Positions 5,988 through 31,779 of a stretch of 36,134 nt of DNA are shown here, piece by piece. Within the stretch, counting starts at the first letter, position 1, and the number at the start of each line of letters is the position of its first letter. The notes beneath the pieces are model-generated. The model had not been told where the DNA came from. It made no database searches and was given only the letters and a program-made list of their open reading frames with translations. Both the position numbers and the translations under genes were made by a program. Source of the stretch: a virus; the IMG/VR virus record IMGVR_UViG_3300032265_000909, positions 1 through 36,134 of that record, one strand, 5' to 3'.

Positions 5988-5993
5988 TAAAGA

Positions 5994-7094: not shown

Positions 7095-7095
7095 T

Positions 7096-7764
7096 ATGCC
7101 ATTAGATAGTTTAACTAATGGTCCTTTTTTAGGGACTACTAGGAATCCATTTAGTTATGAAAAGATTGAGCAAATCAGCCGGGATTTACAAACTGGCTGG
7201 CTTACTCTTGACCAGATTACCCAACAACTAAATTTATTTGAAGATACCAGTCAAGATAACTATCTTGCTGGGCTTGAATTGGCGACCCGCATGGCGATTG
7301 AGGACTACTTAGGTATGTCCATATTCCCAATCACTTATAAGGTCTATTATGGGGTTTATAATGGCATGACAGGCACTCAAATGAGCCTAGACTTGCCAGA
7401 AGTAAGCCAAAGTAGCCAAAACAGGGCTGGAGTAGTAATTAATGAAGTAGCTTATTATTCTGGTGCTACACCGCCTGTATATACAGTTCTTCCAGCATCT
7501 AGCTATTACTATGATCCAACTGGCAACAAGGTTATTGTTACTGGAATCCCTGATTCTGCCAGCCAGATCATGTCTAACCCAATTGTTTGCACTTACACAA
7601 CCAATGCAAATCCTTTAGCTCAATATCCAGTAATTCAACAAGCTGGCTTATTGCTTTTGACCCATTTATACAATAATCGTAGCAATACTTTTAATGGCAA
7701 GCTAGATGAAATCCCATTTGGTGTAGCCCAGCTACTTAGACCTTACAAGCCTTTGGTGATGTAA
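7096..7764 (+). CDS. Head-tail connector, gp6-like
   Basis: This 222-residue protein is probably the adaptor ring that docks under the portal. The N-terminal part shows the helical pattern of the HK97 gp6 / SPP1 gp15 group: LTLDQITQQLNL, a short acidic turn, then a helix with LATRMAIEDYLG (about residues 62-73). The remainder is beta-rich with many Tyr and Pro. It begins one base after the capsid stop and shares a base with the next gene, which fits a head-completion operon. Assignment is by position and helix pattern; sequence in this family varies greatly. Confidence 0.78.
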   Translation: MPLDSLTNGPFLGTTRNPFSYEKIEQISRDLQTGWLTLDQITQQLNLFEDTSQDNYLAGLELATRMAIEDYLGMSIFPITYKVYYGVYNGMTGTQMSLDLPEVSQSSQNRAGVVINEVAYYSGATPPVYTVLPASSYYYDPTGNKVIVTGIPDSASQIMSNPIVCTYTTNANPLAQYPVIQQAGLLLLTHLYNNRSNTFNGKLDEIPFGVAQLLRPYKPLVM

Positions 7765-8108
7765 TGGCTATTGCTCGTTATGAACAAATTGAAGTAAACC
7801 ATGTAACCAATTCTGTAGATGATTTGGGGCAATACACCACTACTATTACTCCTTGGTTTGCTACTAGGGCTAGAGTGCAAGATGTTCACAATAATCTACA
7901 AATAAACAAAGAAACCCGAATTTATGCAGACTTTGTAAAACTTGTATTAAATTACACCCCAAATACAAGGCTTATGGTGGACAATCAGCCGCTTTATTCT
8001 ATTACTTATAGAGATAAAGATTGGCGAATTACTGATTGTTTTGAATCGAATGATCGCATGAATGTTACATTCCTGTGCTATAGAAATGATCCGACTGCCC
8101 CAGTATGA
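7764..8108 (+). CDS. Head-tail joining or head-closure protein
   Basis: This 114-residue protein matches the size, position and beta-rich composition of the SPP1 gp16 / HK97 gp7 head-closure group, which plugs the connector and gives the tail its docking surface. Visible pattern: an N-terminal strand pair with YEQIEVNHVTN, a middle tract RARVQDVHN, and a C-terminal YRDKDWRITDC that resembles the closing strand motif of the family. It starts on the last base of the upstream stop codon and its end overlaps the next start by four bases. No catalytic motif is expected or seen. Confidence 0.72.
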   Translation: MAIARYEQIEVNHVTNSVDDLGQYTTTITPWFATRARVQDVHNNLQINKETRIYADFVKLVLNYTPNTRLMVDNQPLYSITYRDKDWRITDCFESNDRMNVTFLCYRNDPTAPV

Positions 8109-8518
8109 GCCAACAAAATCCAGTCAATTATGCCAAGGCTATTCAATACCAACTTAAAAGTATTGTTAATCCTGTGCCTGTGTATGCTAATTTTAATAGA
8201 AACTTTGCTTCTGAGCCTAAGTTTATTACTTGGCAATTAAGGAATGTTCATCAGCCTGTATATACTGGTGTTAATCAAAATAATAAGGGCATTGACCGCC
8301 CGGTTTTTCAAATGTCCATTTATGCTCAAGATATGGGCGATGCTTTTAATATAGCAAATTCCATATTACAATCATTACATGGATATAATGGTCAATTTGG
8401 CGGTATTGATGGTTTTTATATTGCCAAAGCCGATGTAATCATGCTATATAATACATACGATAATACTGTAGGTTTGCAACAGATAACAATGGATTGCACC
8501 TTAGATATTCCAACATAA
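8105..8518 (+). CDS. Tail terminator or tail completion protein
   Basis: This 137-residue protein probably caps the tail tube and joins it to the head (lambda gpU / DUF3168-like role). Its N-terminus is a helix of the kind that opens this family (residues 6-18), followed by strands containing RPVFQMSIYAQD and a helix FNIANSILQSLHG, the expected alpha-beta layout. It lies directly before the tail tube gene. The 31 bases after its stop are AT-rich with no gene. Assignment depends on position plus fold pattern rather than a diagnostic motif. Confidence 0.65.
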   Translation: MSQQNPVNYAKAIQYQLKSIVNPVPVYANFNRNFASEPKFITWQLRNVHQPVYTGVNQNNKGIDRPVFQMSIYAQDMGDAFNIANSILQSLHGYNGQFGGIDGFYIAKADVIMLYNTYDNTVGLQQITMDCTLDIPT

Positions 8519-8549
8519 GAATTTATTAATTATTTTTTAAGGAATCAAA

Positions 8550-9071
8550 ATGGCTCTTCCAAATCAAGTTTTACCCGGATTCTCGGCATCGCTATGGTGT
8601 CAGACTAGTGCAACTCCTACAGCATTAACTATTTCCCAACTTTCCACTTGGACAGCAGAAGTGGCTGATATTGTTGGCACAGCCGCTAATGGAACTGGCT
8701 CTGCTGGCGAACAGTTAAATGTTGAAGCTATCCCTGCTTTTGGTCAAGATGATGCATCTGCATCATTTATGGTTGCTGGTAGCCGCCAATCGGATCAAAT
8801 TCCTACACAAAGCAAACCAACTTCAATGACTATTGTTGCTCCTTGGAATCCAAGCGATGCAGGATTGTTGTTAATGAGAGGTGATGCTTATAGTGGCATT
8901 ATTGATCGTACATTTGTGGTAGCGGCTGTATCTGGTTCTGATACTGTTGCTTATGCATTTAATGGTCGTGTAAGTGAGTTCAAGATTGATGCCGCACCCG
9001 GCAAAGAAGCAACTTGCACTTTCACAGTTCATCCTAGGGGCAATCAGTATGGCTGGTCAAACAATACTTAA
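8550..9071 (+). CDS. Major tail tube protein
   Basis: This 173-residue protein is the likely building block of the tail tube, forming stacked hexameric rings around the tape measure protein. It is beta-rich with small residues, a central loop with SRQSDQIPTQ (about residues 78-87), and a closing strand KEATCTFTVHPRG, consistent with tube proteins of long-tailed phages. It has a strong ribosome-binding site (AAGGAA) and its own small upstream gap, consistent with high expression. It is followed by chaperone-type small genes and the tape measure gene, which is the standard order. Confidence 0.82.
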   Translation: MALPNQVLPGFSASLWCQTSATPTALTISQLSTWTAEVADIVGTAANGTGSAGEQLNVEAIPAFGQDDASASFMVAGSRQSDQIPTQSKPTSMTIVAPWNPSDAGLLLMRGDAYSGIIDRTFVVAAVSGSDTVAYAFNGRVSEFKIDAAPGKEATCTFTVHPRGNQYGWSNNT

Positions 9072-9076
9072 TCTAA

Positions 9077-9253
9077 ATGATTAAAGTTAAGTTTGCCAAT
9101 GGCAAAGTCTATGAAGCAGGGCATATTGATGAAGCTATCAAATTATGCCTTGCTGATAGACATGATCCATTTAAGCCTGTTGTAATTCCAGAACAACCTA
9201 AACAGAAAAAGATTAAGAAAGCAGAAGAAGATGAATATAGAGAGCAGTTCTGA
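9077..9253 (+). CDS. Small charged protein after the tail tube gene
   Basis: A 58-residue frame starts five bases after the tail tube stop codon. It begins MIKVKFANGKVYEAG and ends in a run rich in Lys and Glu (residues 40-56). The start resembles a short beta-hairpin; the rest is probably a charged helix. It overlaps the next gene by 23 bases. The tight fit between two structural genes supports it being real, but I recognise no family. It could be a small tail-assembly factor. Confidence 0.6.
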   Translation: MIKVKFANGKVYEAGHIDEAIKLCLADRHDPFKPVVIPEQPKQKKIKKAEEDEYREQF

Positions 9254-9461
9254 TCTTTTAAGCTATTTATTAAGTCAAGCCAATTCTGGTGTAAAAAATT
9301 GGTTTGGTTTTGCCCAACAGCGCATTACAGGCATTTATTTGGCGCATGAAATGGCTAAATATCATGCCGATAAATTTACCCCTGATGAAATAACTGATTA
9401 TGTAATTAAGTTAAATAATTCCATATATCAAAAGTTAATCAAGGGCGATGGAAATGGCTGA
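9231..9461 (+). CDS. Small helical protein in the tail operon
   Basis: This 76-residue protein overlaps the small gene before it by 23 bases and the next gene by 14. It appears mainly helical, with aromatic residues in VKNWFGFAQQR (21-31) and a DEITDYVIKLNNSIYQK stretch near the C-terminus. There is no signal peptide or obvious membrane span. Its place between the tail tube and gp10-like genes suggests an accessory in head-tail joining, but no family is recognised. Confidence 0.6.
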   Translation: MNIESSSDLLSYLLSQANSGVKNWFGFAQQRITGIYLAHEMAKYHADKFTPDEITDYVIKLNNSIYQKLIKGDGNG

Positions 9462-9996
9462 ATCCTCAGTTAAATTCAAGCTAGAAGGCATGGAAGAATT
9501 GCTTGAGGTATTCAATCAGATTCAAGATGATTTTGGCGATAAAGATGCCAATAAGATTTTAAAAACAGCGGTTCATGCATCTATGCAACCAGTCTTGATG
9601 ATGGCTAAATCATTAGCCCCTGTAGATACAGGCGCATTGGCGGCATCCCTTAGAATTGAAGCTCGGCGACCTACCGCAAAAGATAAGCGGTCTAGATATA
9701 TCAAAACCACCGATACAGTTATTGGCACAGTTACTACTGCTCCGGGCAATGTTTTAAAAAATAGGTCATTTCGCAATCTTCATGCTCCGGCAGGGCAAAG
9801 AATTAAACAAATTGGCATCCCAAGCGATGCAAGGGCAAATGTCCAAGAGTTTGGCTCATACAAGATGGCGGCTCATCCATTTATGCGCCCTGCATTAGAA
9901 TCTCAAAGTTTACAAGTAGCACAAAGTTTAGGCAGGACTTTAGGAATTGCTTTAGATAAATACAAAGCAAAACAATATAGAAAAGGTAAATTATGA
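9448..9996 (+). CDS. HK97 gp10-like tail component
   Basis: This 182-residue protein matches the HK97 gp10 family, head-tail or tail-joining proteins near the tail tube. The diagnostic features are an opening SSVKFKLEGMEELLEVF (about residues 5-21), then AKSLAPVDTGALAASLRIEA (54-73), whose VDTGAL core is the family signature, and a C-terminal HPFMRPALES (about 142-151). It could start at ATG 9448 or 9454; the first has AAGGG at short spacing. Its position after rather than before the tail tube gene is unusual compared with HK97. Confidence 0.85.
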   Translation: MEMAESSVKFKLEGMEELLEVFNQIQDDFGDKDANKILKTAVHASMQPVLMMAKSLAPVDTGALAASLRIEARRPTAKDKRSRYIKTTDTVIGTVTTAPGNVLKNRSFRNLHAPAGQRIKQIGIPSDARANVQEFGSYKMAAHPFMRPALESQSLQVAQSLGRTLGIALDKYKAKQYRKGKL

Positions 9997-10478
9997 ATCA
10001 ATTTGCAAATGCTTTAGGTAAATCATTTAACAAAGATTCGCTTAGAATCCGATCATTTGAATTGGGCGGGCATACTTTTAAAGTAAAAGTGCCATTAACC
10101 GCTGAATATGAGAATATGCTCGAATCAGTAAAGATTATTGATGATAATAAAGTCAATAAATATTATGATGAATTATCTAAAGAATTTATTAATAATAAAG
10201 CTGAATTTGAAAAGCAAGAAGATGTAATATTTACAGATAATGATATTTTATTAAAAGGCACTTCATTAAGAGAAACTGCCAAAAATAAAGCCATTCTTGA
10301 AAATCGAATTTTGTCATTAATTAAATTAATAGTGCCAGAAGAAGAAGGCTTTGATATGTCCACTATTACTTATGACATGATTGAAGAATTATTTCCATTT
10401 TCCATTCAAATTCAGTTAATTGAAGAAATTAGCCTTGTTATTTCCCCATCCTATAAAACAACAAAGGGAAAGTCCTAG
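9993..10478 (+). CDS. Tail assembly chaperone, gpG-like
   Basis: This 161-residue protein occupies the place of lambda gpG, directly upstream of the tape measure gene, where gpG and gpGT guide tail-shaft assembly. The N-terminus (residues 1-37) has a short beta-rich start with RIRSFELGGHTFKVKVPLT, similar to many tail chaperones; the rest is a helical, Lys/Glu-rich protein. Near its end lies GGGAAAG, the slippery heptamer used in lambda, and the downstream -1 frame is open to 10825. A minor fraction of ribosomes should therefore make the longer gpGT form. Confidence 0.85.
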   Translation: MNQFANALGKSFNKDSLRIRSFELGGHTFKVKVPLTAEYENMLESVKIIDDNKVNKYYDELSKEFINNKAEFEKQEDVIFTDNDILLKGTSLRETAKNKAILENRILSLIKLIVPEEEGFDMSTITYDMIEELFPFSIQIQLIEEISLVISPSYKTTKGKS

Positions 10479-10825
10479 GATCAGTCCGGCGGCAAGTTAA
10501 AGGATATTTAATTGCTCATGGTACTGATCCAGCAGAAATAAGCGAAGAAACTTTTAATGACATCTGCTTAATGTATTCAGATGGATTAATTGGAAATAAT
10601 AGGATTATAGAAACCCTAGGCAATTTAACAGCAGGGGTTTATAATTATATGCGAAGTGCTAATGCACCCCCATATAAGCTACAAGATATTATTCCTACAG
10701 TTTACGATTATTTATATCCACCATTGTCGGAAGAAGAAAAGAAAGATGCGGCAAGTAAACAATTAATAGCCTTTGCATTAATGCATCCGGGCGCACCAAA
10801 AGAGTTATTGGAAAGATATAAATGA
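9993..10825 (+). CDS. Tail assembly chaperone fusion, gpGT-like, by -1 frameshift
   Basis: The expected product is 277 residues: 160 from the gpG frame (9993-10472) and 117 from the -1 frame (10472-10825). The T part begins VLGSVRRQVKGYLIAHG and is open without interruption through an internal ATG at 10571, so the downstream frame has no convincing independent start. The T part is helical, with a tyrosine- and proline-rich centre, and ends four bases into the tape measure gene. In lambda, gpGT binds the tape measure protein and recruits tail tube subunits; the same role is inferred here. The total length is close to that of lambda gpGT. Confidence 0.85.
10466..10472 (+). other. Programmed -1 frameshift site GGGAAAG
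   Basis: In the gpG frame the codons read AAG GGA AAG TCC TAG. The heptamer G GGA AAG has the X XXY YYZ form and is identical to the lambda G-T slippery sequence. It lies three bases before the TAG stop. Slipping back one base continues as GTC CTA GGA and stays open for 117 more codons. An overlapping A AAG GGA also fits the slippery form. Confidence 0.88.
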
Positions 10826-12702
10826 GTAATAATATCGCTAGACTGGGTGTAGTAATGGGGTTAGATACCGCTGAGTTCACTACTGGACTTCAAGCGGTAG
10901 AAAAGAAGTTAGATAACTTCAAAGACAAATTAATGGAATTTGCTAGTGTTGCCGCATTTGTGGAAATGACCCGCAAGGCAATGGAATATGCAGATACCAT
11001 TACTACCACAGCTAAAGCTAATGATGTTACTACTGCATCTGTTTTAGAGCTTTCCAAAGCATTAGAAGAAAATGGTGGAAATGCCGAAGAAACTGGGCGC
11101 ATTTATTCTGGGTTCAACCAAAAGGTAGAAACAGCCGCTTTAGGTAGCGCCAAAGCCCAAGAATCCTTTGCCCGGCTTGGAGTGTCATTAAATGACATTA
11201 AAACCCTTTCATCTCAAGATTTATTTGCAAAAACTATTACTGGTTTATCAAAAATTGAAGATTCAGTAACTCGAAATGGTTTGGCTTTCCAAACTTTAGG
11301 AAAAGCCATTCGAGGTGTAGATATTGTCGGATTGGCTCATACCCTAGAAGAATCTAGGGGCGAAATGGACAAGTATGCTTATGCTGTAGAAAAAGCGCAT
11401 GAGCTACATCTTGAAATGGAAGCATCTGGCAGAAAACTAACTTTAATGTTTACCGATGCAGTCATTCCTACTTTAAAAGTGGTATATGATGATTTAACCA
11501 AAAATGGCGGTGCTTTAGAAACTTTTATGAATGGCTTTAAGTTATTTTTTGAAGGCTTAGGTATTCTTTATGCCGCCATTAAAGTAGATGTCTTTTATAT
11601 CATTGACACAATTAAAATGATTGCCAATGTAGTAAATGATGTATTGACATTGAGTATTGATAAAGCAATTGCTCATCTTAAAAATGGCTTAAATGAAATT
11701 AAATTAGATACTGTTGCATATCAGCAGACATTAGAAAAAATCAGGCAAGCAAATACAGCCGGAACACCTACAGGCGGCGATGAAGGCAAATCAAACAGAG
11801 ATATTATTAATGCCAATGCTTCAAAACTAAACTCTGCCAAAGGTTTGACCGATGAATATAAGCGCCATTCTGATTTAACTTTAAAAATGGCTTTGCAAGC
11901 TAGAGAATTATTAACTTTAACCAAAGATCAACAATCTGTGCAAATTGCAATCAATAAAGTTATTGATGACAATGCAAAAGCTGTAGATGCTATTGATAAG
12001 CAAATAGCCGCCGCTAGAGGTACTCAAGGCGGTGCGGCTTTAATTAAAGAATATGAAAAACAAAAAGCCGCTATTTTAGATTTAAAGCAAACTTATATTA
12101 ATGCTACAAAAGAACAAGTTCAAGCAACTGTTGATTTTCAAAGAACTTACAGTTTTGGTTGGAATAAAGCATTTAACCAATTTAAAGAAGATGCTAATAA
12201 TAATGCCAAAGTAGTTACCGATATGTTTAATGCAACTTTAAGTAGTATGAATAGTGCTATTGACACTTTTGTAACAACAGGTAAATTAAGTTTTGCAGAT
12301 TTAGCAAAAAGTATTTTGGCTGATTTAGAAAAAATTATTCTTAAATCTTTATTAATGCGATCTATTTCTGGTATTGGTGGATTGTTTGGGGCTGGTGAAA
12401 CTGCTGGTGTAGCGGTTGCCGCATTTGCTGGTGGCGGTGATCCACCAGTAGGTGTTCCATCTTTGGTTGGTGAAAATGGTCCAGAACTATTTATTCCAAG
12501 ACGAGCTGGGACTGTTATTCCTAATAATCAAATTAGTAATTTTATGGGTGGTGGTGGTCAAACCATAAATTACAATGCGCCATATATCAACAGTATGTCT
12601 GCTATTGATACTCAATCCGCTATGCAATTTTTGTCGCAAAACAAGATGGGAATCTGGGCATCCTATCAATCTGCCGCTAAATCATTGCCTGTATCGAGAT
12701 AA
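10822..12702 (+). CDS. Tape measure protein
   Basis: This 626-residue protein sets tail length; at about 0.15 nm per residue the tail would be near 90 nm. The N-terminal half is helical and alanine-rich with coiled-coil character (residues 20-130), a hydrophobic segment lies around residues 230-290, and the C-terminal part is glycine-rich. The stretch VGVPSLVGENGPELFIPRRA (about 535-554) is typical of lambda gpH-like tape measure C-termini. It follows the frameshifted chaperone pair with a four-base overlap, as expected. It has no recognisable peptidoglycan hydrolase insert. Confidence 0.93.
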   Translation: MSNNIARLGVVMGLDTAEFTTGLQAVEKKLDNFKDKLMEFASVAAFVEMTRKAMEYADTITTTAKANDVTTASVLELSKALEENGGNAEETGRIYSGFNQKVETAALGSAKAQESFARLGVSLNDIKTLSSQDLFAKTITGLSKIEDSVTRNGLAFQTLGKAIRGVDIVGLAHTLEESRGEMDKYAYAVEKAHELHLEMEASGRKLTLMFTDAVIPTLKVVYDDLTKNGGALETFMNGFKLFFEGLGILYAAIKVDVFYIIDTIKMIANVVNDVLTLSIDKAIAHLKNGLNEIKLDTVAYQQTLEKIRQANTAGTPTGGDEGKSNRDIINANASKLNSAKGLTDEYKRHSDLTLKMALQARELLTLTKDQQSVQIAINKVIDDNAKAVDAIDKQIAAARGTQGGAALIKEYEKQKAAILDLKQTYINATKEQVQATVDFQRTYSFGWNKAFNQFKEDANNNAKVVTDMFNATLSSMNSAIDTFVTTGKLSFADLAKSILADLEKIILKSLLMRSISGIGGLFGAGETAGVAVAAFAGGGDPPVGVPSLVGENGPELFIPRRAGTVIPNNQISNFMGGGGQTINYNAPYINSMSAIDTQSAMQFLSQNKMGIWASYQSAAKSLPVSR

Positions 12703-18100: not shown

Positions 18101-18346
18101 ATGTTTACTTTAGAATCAGCAACAAATCCAAAATATGTAAATGCAGAAGGAACTGCTATTGAATTACAAGTTAAATTTGCAGAATTTTCTGAAGCGATGC
18201 CTTTTGGCGCAACAAGTTATGATGTTGAACCTCATGGTGTAGATATTTATAATCGTGCAAAAGCTGGAGAATTTGGTAAAGTTGCTCCTTATGTTGATTT
18301 AAAAAATCAAACAGAACCATCTACTACTGGAACACAATCTGCATAA
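18101..18346 (+). CDS. Small tail-fibre-associated protein
   Basis: This 81-residue protein has a good ribosome-binding site (AAGGAAA) and begins MFTLESATNPKYVNAEGTAI, followed by FAEFSEAMPFGATS and IYNRAKAGEFGKV. I recall similar small proteins after tail-fibre genes in other phages, where they have been treated as accessory or assembly proteins. There is no signal peptide, membrane span or catalytic motif. It ends one base into the next gene. The role is uncertain. Confidence 0.65.
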   Translation: MFTLESATNPKYVNAEGTAIELQVKFAEFSEAMPFGATSYDVEPHGVDIYNRAKAGEFGKVAPYVDLKNQTEPSTTGTQSA

Positions 18347-18528
18347 TGGAATATTACAAAGGCAGAATTTATCCTAATTCTTCTCCTGAATTTCGACATC
18401 TACAAAAAAATGATGGGACAGTAGAGATGCAAATAAGGTATATAAATCAACCAATGAATTATATAAGTAAATGGATGTTAATTCAGACGGAAAAAGAAAA
18501 TGACAATACAAGTCAGTCCAAAGCATAA
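18346..18528 (+). CDS. Short protein of unknown function
   Basis: This 60-residue frame starts on the last base of the upstream stop codon (TAATG) and overlaps the following cupin gene by 29 bases. It begins MEYYKGRIYPNSSPEFRHL and is rich in Tyr, Lys and Asn, with an acidic and polar C-terminal tail. No family is recognised. The tight coupling to both neighbours supports it as a real gene. Confidence 0.55.
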   Translation: MEYYKGRIYPNSSPEFRHLQKNDGTVEMQIRYINQPMNYISKWMLIQTEKENDNTSQSKA

Positions 18529-18781
18529 TTTTATTTATGATGGCGCACAGTTAAATATTTATCATGCAGATAAAGGACAGGGCTTATCAAAACATGAGCA
18601 TACTTTTTCTCATGCAACTATATGCAATGCTGGTTCTTGTTTAGTAAGTTTAGAAGGTCGCAGTTATACCATAGACAAAAACTCACAGCCGTTAAACCTG
18701 CCTGCTGGCGAATGGCATGAAATTGAGGCTTTGGAAGATGGCACAGTATTTGTAAATGTATTTGCTGAAGGTAAGTATTAA
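18500..18781 (+). CDS. Small cupin-like protein
   Basis: This 93-residue protein carries a cupin fold signature. Motif 1 is seen as GLSKHEHTFSHA with His32, His34 and His38, and motif 2 as LPAGEWHEI with Pro68, Gly70 and His73, a plausible metal site. It is a single compact beta-barrel of minimal size. Cupins can be enzymes, sugar isomerases or sugar-binding modules; the substrate here is unknown. Its position between tail fibre genes suggests work on fibre or receptor chemistry, but that is inference. A possible promoter for the next gene overlaps its 3-prime end. Confidence 0.75.
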   Translation: MTIQVSPKHNFIYDGAQLNIYHADKGQGLSKHEHTFSHATICNAGSCLVSLEGRSYTIDKNSQPLNLPAGEWHEIEALEDGTVFVNVFAEGKY

Positions 18782-18789
18782 GGTAAAAT
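18762..18789 (+). promoter_or_regulatory. Possible promoter for the fibre gene cluster
   Basis: TTGCTG (18762-18767) and TAAAAT (18784-18789) are separated by 16 bp. The site overlaps the end of the cupin gene and precedes an 80-base gap before the adaptor and fibre genes. Promoter function is inferred from the boxes only. Confidence 0.4.
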
Positions 18790-18814
18790 AACAAAAAAAT
18801 AAGACATGATTTGG

Positions 18815-18837
18815 GGCTAAGTGGAGTGCCACTTGCC
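18815..18837 (+). other. Hairpin in the leader of the fibre cluster
   Basis: AAGTGG, loop AGTG, CCACTT form a perfect 6-bp stem, extended by GGC and GCC with one bulged T. No T-run follows, so it is not a standard terminator. It lies 24 bases upstream of the next start codon and may stabilise the message or act as an attenuator. The whole gap 18782-18860 contains no gene that I can support. Confidence 0.5.
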
Positions 18838-18860
18838 ATTAACCGAGAAATGGAAAAATC

Positions 18861-19346
18861 ATGGCAGTCTTTAACAAAAATACCTTAACTCAGGTATCGG
18901 GTTTTGATAACCAAATTATTGCTGGCGAACTGGTCTATAACCAAAAAACTTTTTGGAATTTAGCATTAGTAGCCTCAGATCAAACCCCATTAAATTTAAC
19001 TGGCGCAACTATTGATGCACAGATTATCCGCAGAAAATTATCCAATGTTAAAGATACCCGCTATGGTTTATCTTTTGATATTAGCGACTACACTCCAACC
19101 CCAACCCCAGTAACTTTGAGCATTGTTAATCTAAATGAAACAAATGGCTCTTTTACTCTTGTTATTGATGAATCTGCATGGGATTTGGTGGCTAATGATC
19201 CTGATTTAGATATTGCCTATATCAATGGCGCTGGTTATTCTGGTCGAATCAAAATTAGTTTTCCAGCCAGCGGAAGCAATCCAGCAAATGATTTAATCAT
19301 TTTTTTGCTATTCATTGTGCGCTCTGATGCAATTGTAAATAATTAA
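18861..19346 (+). CDS. Fibre adaptor-like structural protein
   Basis: This 161-residue protein looks like a beta-sandwich. It has PLNLTGATIDAQIIRRKLS (about residues 45-63), a strand-rich middle, GSFTLVIDESAWDL (about 96-109) and a closing strand ending near DLIIFLLFIVRSD. This resembles the N-terminal BppU-like adaptor modules that attach receptor-binding fibres to tails, and it lies right before the long fibre gene. Ribosome-binding signal is moderate (GAGAAATGG). The family assignment is tentative; attachment of the fibre to the tail is inferred from order. Confidence 0.6.
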   Translation: MAVFNKNTLTQVSGFDNQIIAGELVYNQKTFWNLALVASDQTPLNLTGATIDAQIIRRKLSNVKDTRYGLSFDISDYTPTPTPVTLSIVNLNETNGSFTLVIDESAWDLVANDPDLDIAYINGAGYSGRIKISFPASGSNPANDLIIFLLFIVRSDAIVNN

Positions 19347-19354
19347 GGCTTGCC

Positions 19355-22300
19355 ATGACAGATATTACTTTAACAGCGGCAATAGGCAATGCCATTACTT
19401 TGGTTGTAGATCAGGGCTACTTTGGTCCATCTGGATATAGTGGAACTTCTGGATACTCTGGCTATTCTGGAGCATCTGGTCAATCGGGTTTTAGCGGTTA
19501 TTCCGGGCAAAATGGTACATCTGGGTACAATGGTCAATCTGGTTATTCTGGTTACTCAGGTTATAGTGGCTCTGGCATTTCTGGCTACTCTGGCTATTCA
19601 GGAAGTGGCAGAAGTGGCTACAGCGGTTATAGTGGCTTTTCTGGACAGTCTGGAGCATCTACATCAGGCTATAGCGGATACAGCGGTATAAGCGGTTTTA
19701 GTGGCTTTAGCGGTCAAGATGGTGCATCTGGAATATCTGGTTTTTCTGGTGATTCAGGAATTAGTGGCTATAGCGGTTTTTCAGGATATAGTGGTCAGCA
19801 AGGCACTTCTATTAATGTAAAAGGAACTGTCCCTACTGTTGCTGATTTGCCAGCAATAGGCAACCTTCCAAATGATGCTTATATTGTTTCAGCAGATGGC
19901 GACCTATATGTATGGGATGGGCTAGTTTGGAACAATGTTGGTCCTATTGTTGGTCCATCCGGACAAAGCGGTATAAGTGGTTTTAGCGGATATAGCGGAT
20001 TCTCAGGTGATTCTGGTATTAGCGGTTTCTCTGGGCAAGATGGTCAATCGGGTTACTCTGGGCAAGATGGACAAAGTGGCTACTCTGGCTATTCTGGCGA
20101 CAGCGGTATTTCGGGCTACAGCGGATATTCTGGGGATTCAGGAATAAGTGGCTGGTCAGGTGATAGTGGCATTAGTGGCTACTCTGGATTTAGCGGGGAT
20201 AGTGGAATTAGTGGTTTTTCTGGTGATTCTGGAATATCAGGATTTTCAGGTTATTCGGGCATAGGTTTATATTTTGAAGGTGTTTGGAATTACAATTCTG
20301 CTTATATTACAAATTCTATTGTTATTTATGATGGCAATACTTATATTGCAATTATTGATGTCCCCCCTTATAACGACCAACCAAATATAAATCCTACTTA
20401 TTGGTCTTTATTTGTTCCACAAGGCATAAGTGGTTATAGCGGTTTTTCTGGTTACAGCGGTGATTCTGGAATTAGCGGTTTTTCTGGATATTCTGGCGAT
20501 TCTGGCATTTCAGGTTTTAGTGGTGATTCTGGCATAAGTGGCTTTAGTGGATATTCAGGCGATTCAGGAATTAGTGGTTATTCTGGCGATAGTGGCATTA
20601 GTGGATTTTCTGGTTACTCTGGCGACAGCGGCATTTCTGGTTATTCAGGCGATAGTGGAATATCTGGTTTTTCAGGTCAAGATGGATTAAGTGGCTATTC
20701 AGGCGATAGCGGTATATCTGGCTATAGCGGTTATTCAGGATTGGATGGACAAAGTGGATATTCTGGCGCAAGTGGCATTTCTGGATATAGTGGCTTTAGC
20801 GGCATTTCTGGCTATAGTGGTTCTGGTGTTTCTGGCTATTCTGGATTCTCAGGGGCTTCCGGTATTTCTGGTTTTAGCGGTTATTCTGGTATTTCTGGTT
20901 TCAGCGGAATTGATGGGGCATCTGGAATATCTGGGTATTCTGGTGCATCGGGCATAAGTGGTTGGTCTGGCGCATCTGGTATTTCTGGGTTTAGCGGCAT
21001 TAGCGGTTTTTCTGGAATAAATGGATTAAGTGGTTATTCTGGACAAAATGGAGCATCTGGAATATCAGGTTATAGTGGTATTTCTGGATATTCTGGTGCA
21101 ATAGGAAATTCTGGAATTAGTGGTTATTCTGGAGCATCTGGAATATCAGGTTTTAGTGGTTACTCTGGATATTCAGGATTTTCTGGAACAGCAGGATCAT
21201 CTTCTAGTTCATTTTTATTTAAAGTTAATTCAACTCAATATACTGGGCAACCAGCCGCCGGGTATTTAATTTATAACAATGCAACTCAAACAAGTGCTAC
21301 TTTAATTAGTGTCGATCATTTAGATCAAACTGGCACAGACATTGATATTTTCTTGGCGCTTTTAAATGTTGGCGAAAACTTTACTATTCAAGATAGAAAT
21401 ACAAGTGGCAATTATCAGGTTTGGACAATAACAAGCACACCAACTAATGTTAATCCAAATACTGCAAATAGTTATTGGACTTATCCTGTTTCACTTGTTT
21501 CATCTGCTGGAACTGGAACAACTGGATTTGCAAATAATACTTCAGTAATTTTTGCTACCACAAAAGGTGTATCTGGATATTCAGGCTATTCTGGTTATTC
21601 AGGATTTAGTGGTGCAATAGGCACAAGCGGATTTTCTGGTTTTAGTGGAGCATCTGGCATTAGCGGATATAGTGGCATTTCTGGATATTCTGGATCAGGA
21701 GTATCAGGATATTCAGGTTATTCTGGAATTAATGGCGCATCTGGTATTAGCGGATTTTCTGGTGCAAATGGAGCATCAGGTTATTCTGGATTTAGTGGAA
21801 GTGGTGTAAGTGGTTATAGTGGATATAGTGGCATTAGCGGTTATTCCGGTACAAGCGGTTATAGTGGTTCTGGTGTATCTGGATATTCAGGTTACAGCGG
21901 TTCTGGTGTAAGCGGATATAGCGGTTATTCTGGTGCTGTTGGCGCATCTGGAATTTCTGGCTACTCTGGATACAGCGGAGCAGTAGGCGCATCAGGTATA
22001 TCCGGCTACAGCGGTTATTCTGGTTCTGGAGTTTCTGGATACTCTGGTTATAGCGGATCAGGCATTAGTGGCTATAGTGGTTATAGCGGCACAAATGGTA
22101 CTAATGGAGCATCTGGAATTTCTGGTTACTCAGGCTATTCTGGTTCTGGAATTTCAGGTTACAGCGGCTATAGCGGTGCAGTAGGCACAAGCGGTTATAG
22201 TGGTTATTCTGGAACTAATGGCACTAATGGCGCATCAGGCATTAGCGGATATTCAGGTTATTCAGGATCAGGAATTAGTGGATACTCTGGTTACAGCGGT

Positions 22301-22561
22301 TCTGGCTTTAGTGGTTATTCTGGTTTTTCTGGATATAGTGGTGCTGGTGGCGGTGTAATGACTTATGATTCATTTACTGCTACAGCCAGCCAAACAAGTT
22401 TTACTACATCAACCACTTATACATCAGGTAAGATTGAAGTATTTGTTAATGGTTGTAAAGTAAAAAATGGCACAGATGTTACAGTAACAAGTGGCACAAG
22501 CATTGTATTTGGAACAGGATTAACAGTAGGTATGATTGTGGATGCTGTCTATCCGCACTAA
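19355..22561 (+). CDS. Long Gly-x-Ser (collagen-like) fibre protein
   Basis: This 1068-residue protein is mostly Gly-x-Ser triplets, where x is Tyr, Phe, Ile, Asp, Ala or Gln, broken at intervals by Gly-Ser-Gly. The repeats are almost proline-free. Three non-repetitive inserts interrupt them: about residues 151-199 (ending in a YVWDGLVWNNVG motif), about 303-355 (aromatic, with GVWNYNSAY and PTYWSLF, like small carbohydrate-binding modules), and about 612-737 (beta-rich). Residues 998-1068 form a C-terminal beta module with VFVNGCKV that resembles the repeated module at the end of the tail hub. The protein is probably a trimeric, extended receptor-binding or surface fibre. Codons vary widely between equivalent repeats. 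Confidence 0.85.
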   Translation: MTDITLTAAIGNAITLVVDQGYFGPSGYSGTSGYSGYSGASGQSGFSGYSGQNGTSGYNGQSGYSGYSGYSGSGISGYSGYSGSGRSGYSGYSGFSGQSGASTSGYSGYSGISGFSGFSGQDGASGISGFSGDSGISGYSGFSGYSGQQGTSINVKGTVPTVADLPAIGNLPNDAYIVSADGDLYVWDGLVWNNVGPIVGPSGQSGISGFSGYSGFSGDSGISGFSGQDGQSGYSGQDGQSGYSGYSGDSGISGYSGYSGDSGISGWSGDSGISGYSGFSGDSGISGFSGDSGISGFSGYSGIGLYFEGVWNYNSAYITNSIVIYDGNTYIAIIDVPPYNDQPNINPTYWSLFVPQGISGYSGFSGYSGDSGISGFSGYSGDSGISGFSGDSGISGFSGYSGDSGISGYSGDSGISGFSGYSGDSGISGYSGDSGISGFSGQDGLSGYSGDSGISGYSGYSGLDGQSGYSGASGISGYSGFSGISGYSGSGVSGYSGFSGASGISGFSGYSGISGFSGIDGASGISGYSGASGISGWSGASGISGFSGISGFSGINGLSGYSGQNGASGISGYSGISGYSGAIGNSGISGYSGASGISGFSGYSGYSGFSGTAGSSSSSFLFKVNSTQYTGQPAAGYLIYNNATQTSATLISVDHLDQTGTDIDIFLALLNVGENFTIQDRNTSGNYQVWTITSTPTNVNPNTANSYWTYPVSLVSSAGTGTTGFANNTSVIFATTKGVSGYSGYSGYSGFSGAIGTSGFSGFSGASGISGYSGISGYSGSGVSGYSGYSGINGASGISGFSGANGASGYSGFSGSGVSGYSGYSGISGYSGTSGYSGSGVSGYSGYSGSGVSGYSGYSGAVGASGISGYSGYSGAVGASGISGYSGYSGSGVSGYSGYSGSGISGYSGYSGTNGTNGASGISGYSGYSGSGISGYSGYSGAVGTSGYSGYSGTNGTNGASGISGYSGYSGSGISGYSGYSGSGFSGYSGFSGYSGAGGGVMTYDSFTATASQTSFTTSTTYTSGKIEVFVNGCKVKNGTDVTVTSGTSIVFGTGLTVGMIVDAVYPH
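19421..22350 (+). repeat. Coding repeat region, Gly-x-Ser triplets
   Basis: Nine-base units encoding Gly-x-Ser recur through the fibre gene, organised into longer units such as GDSGISGFSGYS and GYSGYSGSGVS. At DNA level serine is written with both TCN and AGY codons and glycine with several, so the protein repeat is far more regular than the DNA repeat. The region is interrupted by three unique inserts described under the gene. Confidence 0.9.
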
Positions 22562-22564
22562 TAT
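22536..22564 (+). promoter_or_regulatory. Possible promoter for methyltransferase and glycosyltransferase genes
   Basis: TTGTGG (22536-22541), a 17-bp spacer and TAATAT (22559-22564) form a good sigma70-like pair. It overlaps the end of the fibre gene; transcription would start near 22571, about 13 bases before the methyltransferase ATG at 22584. Activity is inferred. Confidence 0.5.
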
Positions 22565-22583
22565 AAGGACAATATAAGATAAG

Positions 22584-23249
22584 ATGACTACAGTATATGG
22601 ATTAGATGTAGCGACACAATGGGAACAGATTTTAGAGCTTCATGTCTTAAATCTAGCAAAGGAATATCACCCTGATTGGTATCGGTGGCGGCTAACCAAT
22701 AATTATGAAAGGGCGGTATTCCTTAAAGGCGACCCAGTATTTCCTAGAGAAACTACCCGGTATCTTTGGGCAAATCAAAACCTATATGGCAATTCCATTT
22801 TAGAAATTGGTTGTTCAACTGGTTATGGATGCCAATTCTTTCCTGCCGATATGAAATATTATGGGGTCGATTATGATCCTATTATTATTTCTGTTGCAAA
22901 AGAGCAACAATGGGGCGACAACAAATTCTTTTTTCAAGCTGATATTAATCAGATGCAAATGGAAAAGCATGATACTGTCATTGCTTTTGAGGTCATTGAG
23001 CATCTTAATAATGGTTTAGATGTTGTGAAAAAACTACAAAATGCTTGCAAGCGGCTATTAATTACTGTGCCGCACAATGAACCAAAAGGATTTTGGGGTG
23101 AGCATCATAAACTGCATGGGCTAACCGAAGCAGATTTCCCCGGATTTACTTTTGCTTATATCAATGAAGCTGGTCATGTATCCGATCAGATGCAACCAGT
23201 ATCCGAAACCAATCGATGCAATCTAATGCTGTGCCGATATGATGCCTAA
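22584..23249 (+). CDS. SAM-dependent methyltransferase, class I
   Basis: This 221-residue protein has the class I fold: motif I ILEIGCSTGYG (72-82), the acidic end of strand two in YYGVDYD (D96), QADI with Asp120 after strand three, and VIAFEVIEHL (132-141), typical of methyltransferases acting on small molecules, lipids or sugars rather than DNA. No DNA-methyltransferase DPPY motif is present. The N-terminal 70 residues include a tryptophan-rich helix pair. It overlaps the glycosyltransferase gene by 11 bases, so the products are likely to act in one pathway, perhaps methylating a sugar or the fibre. The substrate is unknown. Confidence 0.85.
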   Translation: MTTVYGLDVATQWEQILELHVLNLAKEYHPDWYRWRLTNNYERAVFLKGDPVFPRETTRYLWANQNLYGNSILEIGCSTGYGCQFFPADMKYYGVDYDPIIISVAKEQQWGDNKFFFQADINQMQMEKHDTVIAFEVIEHLNNGLDVVKKLQNACKRLLITVPHNEPKGFWGEHHKLHGLTEADFPGFTFAYINEAGHVSDQMQPVSETNRCNLMLCRYDA

Positions 23250-24210
23250 AGTCTTATGCTCGGTAGCTACCAGAGGTAGATATTTCACTACTTTACCGCT
23301 GGTGCTAAATGCCATCATGAATCAAACCAAATTGCCAGATAAGCTGGTCATATTTGATGACAATGATGAGCCACAAGATATGAGAAATGTAGCAATGTAT
23401 CAACATTTTTTTCAAATTCTTGATTACAAAAAGATTGCTTGGGAATGGCTATATGCCGACAAAAAAGGACAGCACCATATTCACCAAAAAGCCAATGAAA
23501 TGGGCTATGAATGGGTTTGGCGGGTAGATGATGATGCTATACCAGAGCCTAATGTCTTAGAAGAATTGTATTGGTCCACAGCTAATAATGTTGGCGCTGT
23601 TGGTGGCTCAATTCTTACTATGCCAAATATCTTTAATACAGCCAAATCTACAGGCAAACTTGCCGACATAGACAAAGAACCTAATATTCAATGGGGCAAC
23701 ATAACTGATACTAAACAAGTCGAACATTTGCATTGCTCATTTCTGTATCGGGCTGGAGTGCATGACTATAACCTTGGGCTGTCCAGAGTAGCGCACAGGG
23801 AAGAAACCTTGTTTACCTATGGTTTGTATCAAAAAGGATACAAAATTTTAACTATACCCAATGCAGTTACTTGGCATTTTAAAAATCCAGAAGGGGGCAT
23901 CCGAAGTGAAACCAAACAAGAAATGTTCGCCCATGATGAAGCTATTTTTAGAAATATTGTTGGATTTTCTGATTCAACCATTGTTGTTCTTAATTGTGGT
24001 GCTGGAGATCATATTGTTTTCAGCCATATACTTTCTGAGATTCCTAATCCTGTCATTTTTACTTGTTATCCTGAGATTGTTCCCGGCAAATCAATAGCAG
24101 AAGCCCAAGCCCTATTTGGCAACCTAGACCAATGGAATATATATAAAAAGATGGCGCAATGGAACTGGAAAGGCAGTTTAGAAGATGCCTATAGGAATAT
24201 GTACCTATGA
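23239..24210 (+). CDS. GT2-type glycosyltransferase with extra GT-B-like lobe
   Basis: This 323-residue protein has two parts. Residues 1-235 look like a family 2 glycosyltransferase (GT-A fold): VLCSVATRGR at the start, IFDDND (38-43), and VWRVDDDAIPEP (93-104), which holds the metal-binding Asp cluster 97-99. Residues 247-323 form a separate alpha-beta unit with VVLNCGAGDHIVFSHIL (249-265), resembling the N-terminal lobe of GT-B heptosyltransferase-like enzymes. The next gene supplies what looks like the C-terminal lobe. Starts at 23239 and 23242 are both possible. It is coupled to both neighbours by overlaps. The sugar donor and acceptor are unknown. Confidence 0.8.
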   Translation: MMPKVLCSVATRGRYFTTLPLVLNAIMNQTKLPDKLVIFDDNDEPQDMRNVAMYQHFFQILDYKKIAWEWLYADKKGQHHIHQKANEMGYEWVWRVDDDAIPEPNVLEELYWSTANNVGAVGGSILTMPNIFNTAKSTGKLADIDKEPNIQWGNITDTKQVEHLHCSFLYRAGVHDYNLGLSRVAHREETLFTYGLYQKGYKILTIPNAVTWHFKNPEGGIRSETKQEMFAHDEAIFRNIVGFSDSTIVVLNCGAGDHIVFSHILSEIPNPVIFTCYPEIVPGKSIAEAQALFGNLDQWNIYKKMAQWNWKGSLEDAYRNMYL

Positions 24211-24635
24211 TTATCATTTCCCCTTTTGCCAAGCCGCTTCAAAATGGCAAACAAAACCCTAAAAATTATGCTTATTGGAAAGAATTAATTGCGCTAATTA
24301 AAGAGCCAATTGTCCAAGTAGGTGTTGAAGGTGAAGAACAACTTGTAAAAGATTTTAGAAAAAATTTGCCCATGTTTGAATTAACAAATTTGTTAAATCA
24401 ATGCCGCACTTGGATTGGTGTAGATAGTTTCTTTCAGCATCTTGCATGGAAAATTGGCAAACCCGGCATTGTTTTATGGTCAGTATCAGACCCTATTATT
24501 TATGGACATCCTGAAAATACTAATTTATTAAAAAACAGAGATTATCTGGCTGATAATCAGTTTTTATGGTGGGATTTCACCGAATATAATGCTGATGCCT
24601 TTGTTTTACCAGAAGAAGTGGTAAAATTCTTATAA
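24207..24635 (+). CDS. GT9-like (heptosyltransferase) C-terminal half
   Basis: This 142-residue protein resembles the C-terminal nucleotide-sugar lobe of GT-B, family 9 glycosyltransferases: an opening strand IIISPFAKPL, a PIVQVGVEGEEQL segment, and CRTWIGVDSFFQHLAWKIGK (85-104), where the family usually has a conserved D-S-x-x-x-H-x-A. The N-terminal lobe is missing, but a matching lobe is fused to the end of the upstream protein. The two genes overlap by four bases. Likely the two chains fold together as one split enzyme, or the gene was broken from a longer ancestor. This is inference from motif order. Confidence 0.72.
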   Translation: MIIISPFAKPLQNGKQNPKNYAYWKELIALIKEPIVQVGVEGEEQLVKDFRKNLPMFELTNLLNQCRTWIGVDSFFQHLAWKIGKPGIVLWSVSDPIIYGHPENTNLLKNRDYLADNQFLWWDFTEYNADAFVLPEEVVKFL

Positions 24636-24677
24636 CCAGATAAGATAAAATTGATTAATTAATAACCTATTATCTGG
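24636..24677 (+). other. Inverted repeat before the lysis genes
   Basis: CCAGATAA (24636-24643) pairs with TTATCTGG (24670-24677) across a 26-base AT-rich loop. The right arm ends seven bases before the ATG at 24685 and adjoins the GGGG that would serve as ribosome-binding site, so folding could limit translation of the first lysis gene. The loop contains TATTAT, a possible -10 box that lacks a good -35. No terminator T-run follows. Confidence 0.5.
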
Positions 24678-24684
24678 GGTTGCT

Positions 24685-24924
24685 ATGGCTTTTGAATTTG
24701 ATAAAGAAGAATTAAAGACATTTTTAAAAGAAGTTATTGCAGAAGCGGCGCATCCATTATCTGATGATGAAATTAAATGGGTTCGCCTAGCAATTGAAGC
24801 TGAAGCAAAAAAAGCCGCATTTAGACAAGCTGTAATTGATAAAACCCTTATTGGTTTATTAAGTTCTGGTGTTATTGGGCTTATATATTTTTGTATTGAT
24901 GCTTTTAAAAATCATTGGAAATGA
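24685..24924 (+). CDS. Small membrane protein, first lysis-cassette gene
   Basis: This 79-residue protein has a charged, helical N-terminal half (KEELKTFLKEVIAEAA and a Lys/Ala-rich helix) and one hydrophobic segment at about residues 55-71 (GLLSSGVIGLIYFCI), ending in a short basic tail. One membrane span with an N-terminal amphipathic domain would fit a holin accessory or antiholin. Its stop overlaps the holin start. I do not recognise a named family; the role comes from position next to holin, spanin and endolysin genes. Confidence 0.6.
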   Translation: MAFEFDKEELKTFLKEVIAEAAHPLSDDEIKWVRLAIEAEAKKAAFRQAVIDKTLIGLLSSGVIGLIYFCIDAFKNHWK

Positions 24925-25124
24925 ATAAAGTAATGCATGGGGCTATAAAGTCCCGAACAATGTGGTTTTCTGTAGCATTAGCTATTTTAGGGGCTATATT
25001 TGATAACCTTTCATATATCCAGCCATTTCTTGATCCTAAGACTTATGGAATTGGGCTTATGGTTATTGCCATTTGCATTGCTATTCTTAGGGTTACTACT
25101 ACTTCTTCATTGGATGAAAAATGA
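24921..25124 (+). CDS. Holin-like protein
   Basis: This 67-residue protein starts at ATG 24921, overlapping the upstream stop (ATGA). It has two hydrophobic stretches, around MWFSVALAILGAIFDNL (14-30) and YGIGLMVIAICIAILRV (43-59), separated by YIQPFLDPK, and a charged C-terminus. That two-span layout and the LSYIQPFLDPKTYG turn are familiar from small phage holins that open the inner membrane at lysis time. An in-frame TTG six bases upstream is less likely. Holin function is inferred; no pore assay can be read from sequence. Confidence 0.78.
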   Translation: MNKVMHGAIKSRTMWFSVALAILGAIFDNLSYIQPFLDPKTYGIGLMVIAICIAILRVTTTSSLDEK

Positions 25125-30478: not shown

Positions 30479-31240
30479 ATGAATTTTTACCCCTTCCATA
30501 TCGGCGATTATGCCGCCCATACAAGGCATCTAAGTCTTATAGAGGACTTAGCATACCGAAGATTAATTGATAGTTATTATCTTGCAGAAGCGCCATTTTT
30601 AGGTGCGCCAGAGTTTATTGCCCGAAGAATAGGTATGAAGGAATATGCGGAAGAAGTGGCATATATCCTTGCAACCTTTTTTGAAGAAACCGATCTTGGC
30701 TGGATAAACAAGCGGTGCGATGAAGAAATAGCCAAATATCATGCTAAGGCAGATAGCGCCAGAAATGCCAACAGGATCAAATTAGAGAAGAAATCAGTTC
30801 TGAAACCAGTTCTGAAATCAGAAACCGATCAGACCCTAACCAATAACCAAGAACCAATAACCAAGAACCATATAAAAACAATAACCCCTGCCGGGGTTTC
30901 TGAATCTATTTTTAAAGATTATATGGATGTCAGGAAAGCCAAAAAAGCCAAGTGGACAGAAACAGCTTTAAAAGGACTTATAAGGGAATCAGAAAAAGCC
31001 AACATATCTTTGCAAGAAGCAATGCAAATCTGTTGTGAAAGAGGTTGGATAGGATTCAAAGCGGATTGGATACAGCAAGAAGCTAAAAAATCTCAAGAAA
31101 TGCCTTTAAGAACTAATGAGCAGATAGAACAAGCATATAGGATGGAATGTGGCAAAGACCCGGCACAGGCTCGATTTAATAGCTATTTTGATATGAGGGA
31201 TTACATCATTAAATTTAGAGAGCAAAGGGCAAGAGCATGA
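30479..31240 (+). CDS. YdaU-like (DUF1376) replication protein
   Basis: This 253-residue protein has the DUF1376 start: NFYPFHIGDYAAHTRHLSLI (2-21), then EDLAYRRLIDSYYLAEAP (22-39), a winged-helix-type domain found in phage primosome or replisome-organiser proteins. A polar Asn/Gln/Thr/Lys-rich linker lies at about 115-137, and the rest is a helical domain with MDVRKAKKAKW. It probably loads or recruits the host helicase at the phage origin. It is the only replication protein visible, so polymerase and helicase come from the host. The linker may be disordered. It overlaps the next gene by four bases. Confidence 0.85.
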   Translation: MNFYPFHIGDYAAHTRHLSLIEDLAYRRLIDSYYLAEAPFLGAPEFIARRIGMKEYAEEVAYILATFFEETDLGWINKRCDEEIAKYHAKADSARNANRIKLEKKSVLKPVLKSETDQTLTNNQEPITKNHIKTITPAGVSESIFKDYMDVRKAKKAKWTETALKGLIRESEKANISLQEAMQICCERGWIGFKADWIQQEAKKSQEMPLRTNEQIEQAYRMECGKDPAQARFNSYFDMRDYIIKFREQRARA

Positions 31241-31779
31241 TCCGGCTGGCTACTTTGCTGGATGTGCCATATATTGTTAATCTTGCCAAAAAAGAAACTT
31301 TTTGCCTTGGGTTTATTCCTAAGATGGCATACGAAGCCGCAATTACTGGAATCAAAACTGGCAAGCGCTGGTCAAATACTTGCAATGACAAAATGTTTGT
31401 TTGTGAAGAAAATGGCGATTTAGTGGGATTTGTGTTGTTTTCTTATGGCAACCCAGCCAAATGCAATCAGATTTGCATACAAGAAGATGCCAGAATGATT
31501 GAAAGAGGACAAGCATTATTGTCGGCGGCAATTTCTCATGGCAATCTTAGGGGAATTGAAGATTTTGCTTGCGGATGTGCGGATGATTTGCCAAGCAATG
31601 TATTTTGGTACAAAATGGGCTGGGTAAAGGTAGGGCATAGGCAGGGCATTAGCCATAAAAATACTTGGAAGGAAAGTAGTCAAAGAAAAGTAAATATTTA
31701 TCGCTATCAAACAAACAGTCTTTTTATTAATGAATTTGGCATGATATTGCCAAAAGAGAATGTGGAGTTAGCGATATGA
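31237..31779 (+). CDS. GNAT-family acetyltransferase-like protein
   Basis: This 180-residue protein shows GNAT elements: MIRLATLLDVPYIVNLAKK (1-19), VCEENGDLVGFVLFSYGNP (about 55-73), then QICIQEDARMIERGQALLSA (about 78-97) in the place of the acetyl-CoA loop, and FWYKMGWVKVGHRQG (about 125-139). The loop is R-x-x-x-x-G-x-A-like, not the perfect R-x-x-G-x-G. The substrate is unknown. It is a second, diverged GNAT protein in this genome, in the early operon between the YdaU-like and nuclease-like genes with four-base overlaps on both sides. Confidence 0.75.
   Translation: MIRLATLLDVPYIVNLAKKETFCLGFIPKMAYEAAITGIKTGKRWSNTCNDKMFVCEENGDLVGFVLFSYGNPAKCNQICIQEDARMIERGQALLSAAISHGNLRGIEDFACGCADDLPSNVFWYKMGWVKVGHRQGISHKNTWKESSQRKVNIYRYQTNSLFINEFGMILPKENVELAI

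Follow-up and report, generated by a model that had tools for sequence, protein, structure and literature searches.

A glycosyltransferase cassette gained and lost with a serine-rich collagen-like phage fibre: probable glycosylation of the fibre shaft

The window analysed here is a stretch of viral DNA of 36,134 nucleotides (IMG/VR record IMGVR_UViG_3300032265_000909, positions 1 to 36,134). This 36 kb record comes from a tailed phage, the left part of which encodes the terminase, portal, protease, major head protein, and tape measure. The tail region carries a collagen-like fibre gene followed by a cassette of methyltransferase and glycosyltransferase (GT) genes, all on the plus strand. The fibre (19355..22561, 1068 amino acids) was recognized by its match to Pfam Collagen (E 5e-90), the PHROG tail fibre assignment, and its composition, and it ends with a non-collagen domain of 67 amino acids (22358..22561). 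The class I methyltransferase (22584..23249, 221 amino acids; Pfam Methyltransf_12/11, above the cut-off) starts 22 bases past the fibre stop. It is overlapped by 11 base pairs (bp) by the open reading frame (ORF) of a GT-A, GT2-like glycosyltransferase (23239..24210, 323 amino acids; assigned by Pfam, conservation, and AlphaFold2), which carries at its C-terminus the N-terminal mini-lobe of a GT9 enzyme (23944..24210, about 88 amino acids; a profile match to natural GT2-GT9 fusions). This ORF, referred to below as GT2-GT9N, overlaps by 4 bp, at an ATGA junction, with the ORF of a separate GT9 C-terminal lobe (24207..24635, 142 amino acids; Pfam GT9). The ORFs and Pfam confirmed the order given in a first-pass annotation of this DNA, namely a fibre, a gap of 22 bases, a class I methyltransferase, and overlapping GT2 and GT9 genes. 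The same annotation had suggested that a promoter might lie where the fibre gene ends. This is not supported, since the 23 promoter-like sites found in 18300-25000 correspond to chance (23.4 in shuffled sequences, standard deviation 4.8).

The fibre shaft was examined by counting triplets only in runs of five or more. The window fibre contains long Gly-X-Y runs amounting to 237 triplets, which together with the Pfam match confirms its membership in the collagen-like class. Ser occupies the third position of 202 of the 237 triplets, and the second is most often Tyr (75), Ile (44), or Phe (33). The whole protein has 256 Ser, 101 Tyr, and 16 Pro residues, with only two of the Pro residues inside the triplets. 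Counted over all the Gly-x-Ser fibres collected (15,624 triplets), Ser makes up 84% of the third positions, and Tyr, Ile, and Phe make up 31%, 18%, and 16% of the second ones. The remaining collagen fibres collected with them (12,764 triplets) show Pro at 33% of the second positions and Thr (46%) or Gln (24%) at the third. The Gly-x-Ser shaft is an odd collagen, with almost no imino acids, many aromatic residues, and Ser in most triplets. Both Ser and Tyr had been proposed earlier as natural acceptors of sugars. As the third position is mostly Ser, whereas Tyr alternates with Phe and Ile, the third-position Ser is the predicted regular acceptor. The Ser half of that proposal is retained, and Tyr as the main acceptor was rejected on the residue frequencies given above.

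The GT2 ORF matches Pfam Glycos_transf_2 with an E of 6e-4 and 20.1 bits, below the curated cut-off of 23.3. In the AlphaFold2 model of the window's GT2-GT9N (mean predicted local distance difference test, pLDDT, 94.2), the first part has the GT-A fold. The motifs DD40-41, DDD97-99, and REET187-190 are invariant, and the fold combined with the invariant DDD97-99 places the protein among GT-A enzymes with a DxD-type metal site. In the fold search, all 50 matches listed had a Z of 16.5 or more. The best folds were the polypeptide N-acetylgalactosamine transferases (GT27; Z 18.6, root-mean-square deviation 4.0, 245 residues aligned), tied with a mannosyltransferase (18.4) and numerous other enzymes. 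In a viral fold library, only GT-A glycosyltransferases and unnamed proteins were found among the matches listed.

The 142-amino-acid ORF matches positions 175-218 of the 247 positions of the Glyco_transf_9 profile (E 2.8e-5, 24 bits against a cut-off of 22), and its relative in locus L004 reaches 27.3 bits. Natural fusions from two other phages (L275, 570 amino acids; L410, 590 amino acids) contain GT2, the N-lobe, and the C-lobe in one chain. When the part of these fusions that follows GT2 was compared with WaaF of E. coli, the alignment spanned both lobes (hhalign probability 96.6, E 6e-10, 224 columns). The family N-lobe profile matched the fusions with a probability of 97.4 (E 1.4e-11). 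Judging from these fusions, the added lobe of the window's GT2 protein and the product of the next gene are the N- and C-lobe of one split GT9 enzyme, so that the family's two lobes both occur, the N-lobe preceding the C-lobe. What the first-pass annotation named a GT-B-like lobe and a GT9-like half are thus parts of a single enzyme. The Gly256-Asp257-His258 motif of the N-lobe is invariant in alignments of 28 and 53 rows, and its Gly-Asp aligns, weakly, with the GD of WaaF. The Asp of this pair is catalytic in WaaC. Asp-110 is the candidate catalytic base of the glycosyltransferase TibC (PMC4358343). The two GT9 lobes would form a closed GT-B; the L410 fusion was modelled with a pLDDT of 85.2. 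A sequence search of the PDB with the GT9 C-lobe profile yielded only WaaC-type chains (E 0.017-0.018), while the A1 profile yielded nothing at 0.1. The search for further natural fusions with L275 returned only L275 itself.

The junction between GT2-GT9N and the GT9 C-lobe is ATGA in 71 of 80 distinct loci. It is in itself unusual for a GT9 enzyme to be divided between its lobes and maintained in that state by an ATGA overlap. Comparison of the three enzyme genes of the window with those of three relatives gave ratios of nonsynonymous to synonymous substitution rates (dN/dS) of 0.03-0.14, and the median for close pairs is 0.10 for GT2 (93 pairs) and 0.085 for the GT9 C-lobe (251 pairs), which indicates strong purifying selection on the enzyme genes. 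The methyltransferase is the variable part of the cassette: among 84 distinct loci, it is separate in 62, fused to GT2 in six, and not shown in 16. The methyltransferase of some relatives carries an extra GT2 domain, and some loci have an FkbM-type domain.

The gain and loss of the enzymes was followed within the phage family of the window. For this, the 161-amino-acid protein encoded directly upstream of the fibre (18861..19346, plus strand; an ORF of unassigned function matching phrog_1084, unknown function, E 1e-4) was used as an anchor independent of both the fibre and the enzymes. The scans covered the best 80 of 216 relatives and the best 80 of 84 relatives, and the 196 anchor genes in all the loci collected, including those from other searches, were sorted into 121 contig groups. 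A group was regarded as informative if the enzymes were seen or if at least 5.5 kb past the anchor was available. All 38 informative groups with a Gly-x-Ser fibre had the enzymes (eight others were too short), while none was found in 27 groups with other collagen fibres (12 too short) or in 15 groups with no collagen fibre (21 too short). The resulting 38/38 versus 0/42 comes from a pool that includes loci fetched by their enzymes. When only the anchor-scan loci were counted, the ratio was 24/24 (seven short) versus 0/42 (32 short; Fisher p 1.6e-18). A single 7 kb rule applied to both sides gave 16/17 versus 0/33, and the lone miss has its enzymes beyond the limit. The whole records of the 42 negative groups contained no GT2-GT9N match (0/42), while a positive control record was matched; no such match was found in five of the too-short Gly-x-Ser records searched whole. 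When mapped on a quick tree built from the anchor protein, the two traits each switch seven times, and no informative group breaks the rule. The earlier suggestion that the fibre and the enzymes are gained and lost together was thus borne out by the relatives.

The same association was examined across unrelated phages. For this, viral contigs were scanned with a Gly-Tyr-Ser DNA pattern and a control Gly-Pro-Thr pattern, the results of which are samples. Among the matches listed with complete fibres and at least 2.5 kb downstream, the enzymes were present in 19 of 27 Gly-x-Ser groups and in none of 51 groups with other collagens (p 3e-12; four mixed-composition groups, all without the enzymes, are left out). 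Next to these, 29 Gly-x-Ser records chosen because the fetched stretch showed no enzymes were searched whole. GT2-GT9N was matched in 13 of them (12 strong matches, one weak and partial), in records spanning 16 to 494 kb, versus 0 of 40 control collagen records. The Pfam family PF00535 alone fails to separate the two sets (7/17 Gly-x-Ser records versus 17/33 controls), while PF01075 was found in 3/17 (one below the cut-off) versus 0/33. Enzymes without any Gly-x-Ser fibre would have spoken against the first-pass proposal. No such case was found among the 84 distinct GT2-GT9N groups, of which 72 show a Gly-x-Ser protein, seven are in records fetched for such a fibre, and five are too short to tell. 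Finally, a census of all collagen fibres with at least 1.5 kb downstream was made by shaft type. GT2-GT9 was found in 60 of 77 Ser groups, 0 of 79 Thr groups, and 0 of 18 other groups (p 5e-28); the pool includes loci fetched by GT2-GT9, which raises the 60, but a Thr shaft could equally have turned up in those loci, and none was seen. Of the 17 Ser groups without downstream GT2-GT9, some have the enzymes upstream (L199, L264) or outside the stretch (L237, L261).

Some of the Thr shafts have a different enzyme. A general GT2 search of the 42 negative records revealed another GT2 in 11, five of them over the cut-off. In four of the five loci inspected (L113, L116, L152, L099), the fibre is followed after 3 bases to 2.3 kb by a protein of one family, 347-354 amino acids long; the fifth, L139, showed no protein of this family in the stretch listed. 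This GmaR-like enzyme (L113:5772-6812; L116:12450-13490; L152:6652-7713), located after Thr-type collagen fibres, consists of Pfam GT2 and TPR domains. Its GT domain matches GmaR (E 2e-4), and it has no detectable relation to the window's GT2 (BLASTP E 0.12). GmaR transfers N-acetylglucosamine to flagellin, and its TPR domain may hold the substrate (PMC9638930). In the census, GT2-TPR was present in 0 of 77 Ser groups, 19 of 79 Thr groups, and 1 of 18 other groups (p 1e-6). Relatives of GT2-TPR with about 27-33% identity also occur in large phages of Pseudomonas, Erwinia, and Dickeya.

Taken together, these results led us to propose that the cassette probably O-glycosylates the shaft of its own fibre on Ser. 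The self-decorating fibre of the first-pass annotation is supported by gain and loss with shaft type, and we infer the glycosylation itself from the sequences. In the proposed scheme, the four genes would form one fibre-making cassette. The GT9 N-lobe, carried by the GT2 protein, and the C-lobe encoded by the next gene would be translated by stop-start coupling and assemble in trans. GT2 and the two-chain GT9 would then build a short glycan on the third-position Ser of the Gly-x-Ser triplets, probably through an O-linkage, in the cytoplasm of the infected cell, before or during the folding of the shaft; the sugar and the order of the transferases are likewise putative. The methyltransferase, where present, would probably cap the sugar. 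Since proline is nearly absent from the triplets, the sugar may take over the role of proline or hydroxyproline in making the shaft stiff, and it could also shield it. Sugars on collagen-like proteins are believed to add stability (PMC8968730); PMC3368898 refers to the classical studies of Thr carrying sugar. Such stabilization would be an obvious remedy for a shaft that lacks imino acids. A broader version, for which we would give somewhat less than even chances, is that collagen-like shafts represent acceptor types, each with a cognate glycosyltransferase (GT2 plus the split GT9 for Ser, the GmaR-like GT2-TPR for Thr), that the sugar of a proline-free Ser shaft substitutes for proline or hydroxyproline, and that the GT9 enzyme functions as two chains from coupled genes.

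Several observations weigh against this proposal. Only three of the seven concordant switches lie on well supported branches of the anchor tree, which is too few for a sign test to reach significance. As there are only three independent pairs on such branches, the independence of the switches is indicated, not proven. No GT2-GT9N match was obtained in 16 of the 29 Gly-x-Ser records, several of which are cut at or near the fibre, but loci L491-L495 come from larger records (43 to 141 kb) that are not cut at the fibre, and no relative of the cassette was seen near their Gly-x-Ser fibres. Consequently, the shaft does not always need the cassette, while the cassette seems to need the shaft. On the Thr side, 60 of the 79 shafts have no GT2-TPR neighbour. 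As for the structures, in both fold searches the protein O-glycosyltransferases are separated by no more than 1-2 Z from many unrelated GT-A enzymes. The GT9 N-lobe alone did not align significantly with WaaF (hhalign, 0.7). The fold search of the fusion model was dominated by the GT-A part and had no GT9 entry among the matches listed, so that the GT9 part was barely probed in three dimensions.

The best surviving alternative, though an unlikely one, is that during infection the enzymes alter the surface sugars of the host, i.e. the receptor of the fibre, and block superinfection. The enzymes would then travel with the fibre because each fibre is tied to its receptor. Phage enzymes of this sort are known, and GT9 includes heptosyltransferases of lipopolysaccharide (LPS). 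This role has been proposed for glycosyltransferases located beside the tail fibres of pelagimyophages (PMC7029224), and it is one of the options raised for Nanopelagicales phages (PMC10202952). The strongest counterpoint comes from the fibre end. The 67-amino-acid C-terminal domain of the window fibre also ends seven Thr/Gln-type fibres that have no GT2-GT9 (61-70% identity), which shows that the enzymes follow the third residue of the shaft and not the fibre tip; the end domain may serve trimer formation instead of receptor binding. Furthermore, the enzymes that accompany Ser shafts differ from those of Thr shafts and do not occur together with them, and the cassette is missing from members of the phage family that carry other fibres. 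None of the three enzyme proteins contains a long hydrophobic segment, a feature also absent from LPS core enzymes.

A still less probable alternative is that the enzymes glycosylate another virion protein, such as the capsid, the tail tube, or the 161-amino-acid protein, and that the link with the shaft reflects hitch-hiking within the tail module. Mycobacteriophages do glycosylate their capsid and tail tube (cited in PMC12619734). However, the 161-amino-acid neighbour is present with or without the enzymes, and the cassette recurs beside Gly-x-Ser fibres, or in the same record with them, in records ranging from 16 to 494 kb. Modification of phage DNA has a negligible chance, for although phage glycosyltransferases often modify DNA and the extra domain of the relative L188 gave a weak match to a TET-associated glycosyltransferase, below the cut-off, no base-modifying enzyme was found among the window proteins scanned with Pfam or PHROGs, and the genes belong to the tail module and vary with the shaft type.

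Other genes were observed around the fibres. The nearest sequenced phage is the Methylophilaceae phage P19250A (KX815270), the host of which is Methylopumilus planktonicus (PMC7678222). Its gene order is identical to that of the window, and all three enzymes are annotated as hypothetical. The P19250A Gly-x-Ser fibre (P19250A_0023, L002:15753-19355) is annotated as a tape-measure protein, and another gene, upstream of it, as a PE family protein. Five queries against 50,697 phage records revealed no cultured relatives beyond P19250A. In the window, a protein of 93 amino acids encoded upstream of the 161-amino-acid gene (18500-18781) has a weak FdtA/WxcM-like match (E 0.0019, below the cut-off); since nucleotide sugars are the substrates of FdtA-type enzymes, this protein may be connected with the cassette. 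The replication region encodes a GNAT acetyltransferase-like protein (31237-31779).

Some Gly-x-Ser fibres without the cassette have other enzymes nearby. A GT8-GT9 fusion, i.e. a similar pairing of GT-A with GT9 built from another family, lies about 0.75 kb downstream of the fibre in a record without the GT2-GT9 cassette (L496:5911-7509, minus strand). UDP-galactopyranose mutase and a sulfotransferase are encoded beside the fibre of L190. A 2OG-Fe(II) oxygenase (L209:390-968, minus strand) is located downstream of a Gly-x-Ser fibre of 2307 amino acids, where a hydroxylase might modify the shaft instead. Locus L491 has four consecutive Gly-x-Ser fibre genes (4546-12576) with no related transferase nearby, and upstream of them a radical SAM protein with an intein domain (1458-3119). 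Two GT2-GT9N relatives, L412 and L413, come from metagenome-assembled genomes (MAGs) named as an archaeon and Mucilaginibacter. As L412 carries a phage neighbour gene, the fibre, and the enzymes, it is probably a misbinned phage contig in an archaeal MAG. A cellular source was also considered and found little support, although it may yet exist: a scan of genome_contigs with two peptide patterns, which is a weak search, gave 43 stretches, three of which encode a relative.

In the literature, the glycosyltransferases of aquatic phages have been assigned to host LPS or phage DNA (PMC7029224, PMC10202952), and virion glycosylation has been raised as a possibility (PMC12619734). Our literature search found no description of the cassette; it left subscription papers mostly uncovered, so an earlier report may exist. 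No paper containing the fibre repeat strings was found by it. The comparison suggests that phage-encoded modification of virion proteins is known, and that the combination of GT2 with a lobe-split GT9, the Pro-free Gly-x-Ser target, and the partner system of Thr shafts are new. Our results suggest that many freshwater phages couple a Ser-rich collagen-like fibre with linked sugar-transferring enzymes and decorate their own fibre. If this is true, freshwater phages of a large group, which includes one isolate, produce a collagen-like fibre that they glycosylate themselves, and keep the enzymes alongside. The cohesion of proline-poor collagen-like fibres would then have an explanation that can be tested, and enzyme and substrate would form a natural pair with which glycosylated collagen-like material could be made. 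Fibre-adjacent glycosyltransferases, otherwise ascribed to host LPS or phage DNA, would also gain a function.

The proposed system resembles several known ones in part. The gene of the autotransporter heptosyltransferase adjoins the gene of the adhesin. TibC is a WaaC-like GT-B enzyme that hyperglycosylates Ser residues of a repetitive adhesin (PMC4358343). The likeness to TibC and Aah lies in a GT-B enzyme acting on the serines of a repetitive protein, whereas the GT9 of the cassette is split over two genes with its N-lobe fused to GT2, and the predicted substrate is a phage collagen-like fibre. A split GT-B glycosyltransferase with two lobes on two chains is also represented by Alg13/Alg14. 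This pair is eukaryotic and belongs to another GT family, whereas the split enzyme described here is a viral GT9 with the N-lobe fused to a second glycosyltransferase. As for the substrate, BclA is a spore protein with Gly-Pro-Thr triplets. This protein of Bacillus forms a sugar-bearing collagen-like filament, the sugars of which are believed to aid the hydration network and stability (PMC8968730). The window protein, in contrast, is the fibre of a phage and contains Ser but hardly any Pro. GmaR is a GT2-TPR enzyme that also acts on a filament protein (PMC9638930), but it is a relative of the Thr-shaft enzyme, which is not detectably related to the window's GT2. Finally, phage glycosyltransferases decorate the virion in mycobacteriophages (cited in PMC12619734), where the targets are the C-termini of the capsid and tail tube proteins, whereas here the target would be the fibre shaft. 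The linkage of the enzyme genes to the gene of their target, a feature of phage virion glycosylation, is found here as well, both within the phage family of the window (38/38 versus 0/42) and in the shaft census (60/77 versus 0/79).

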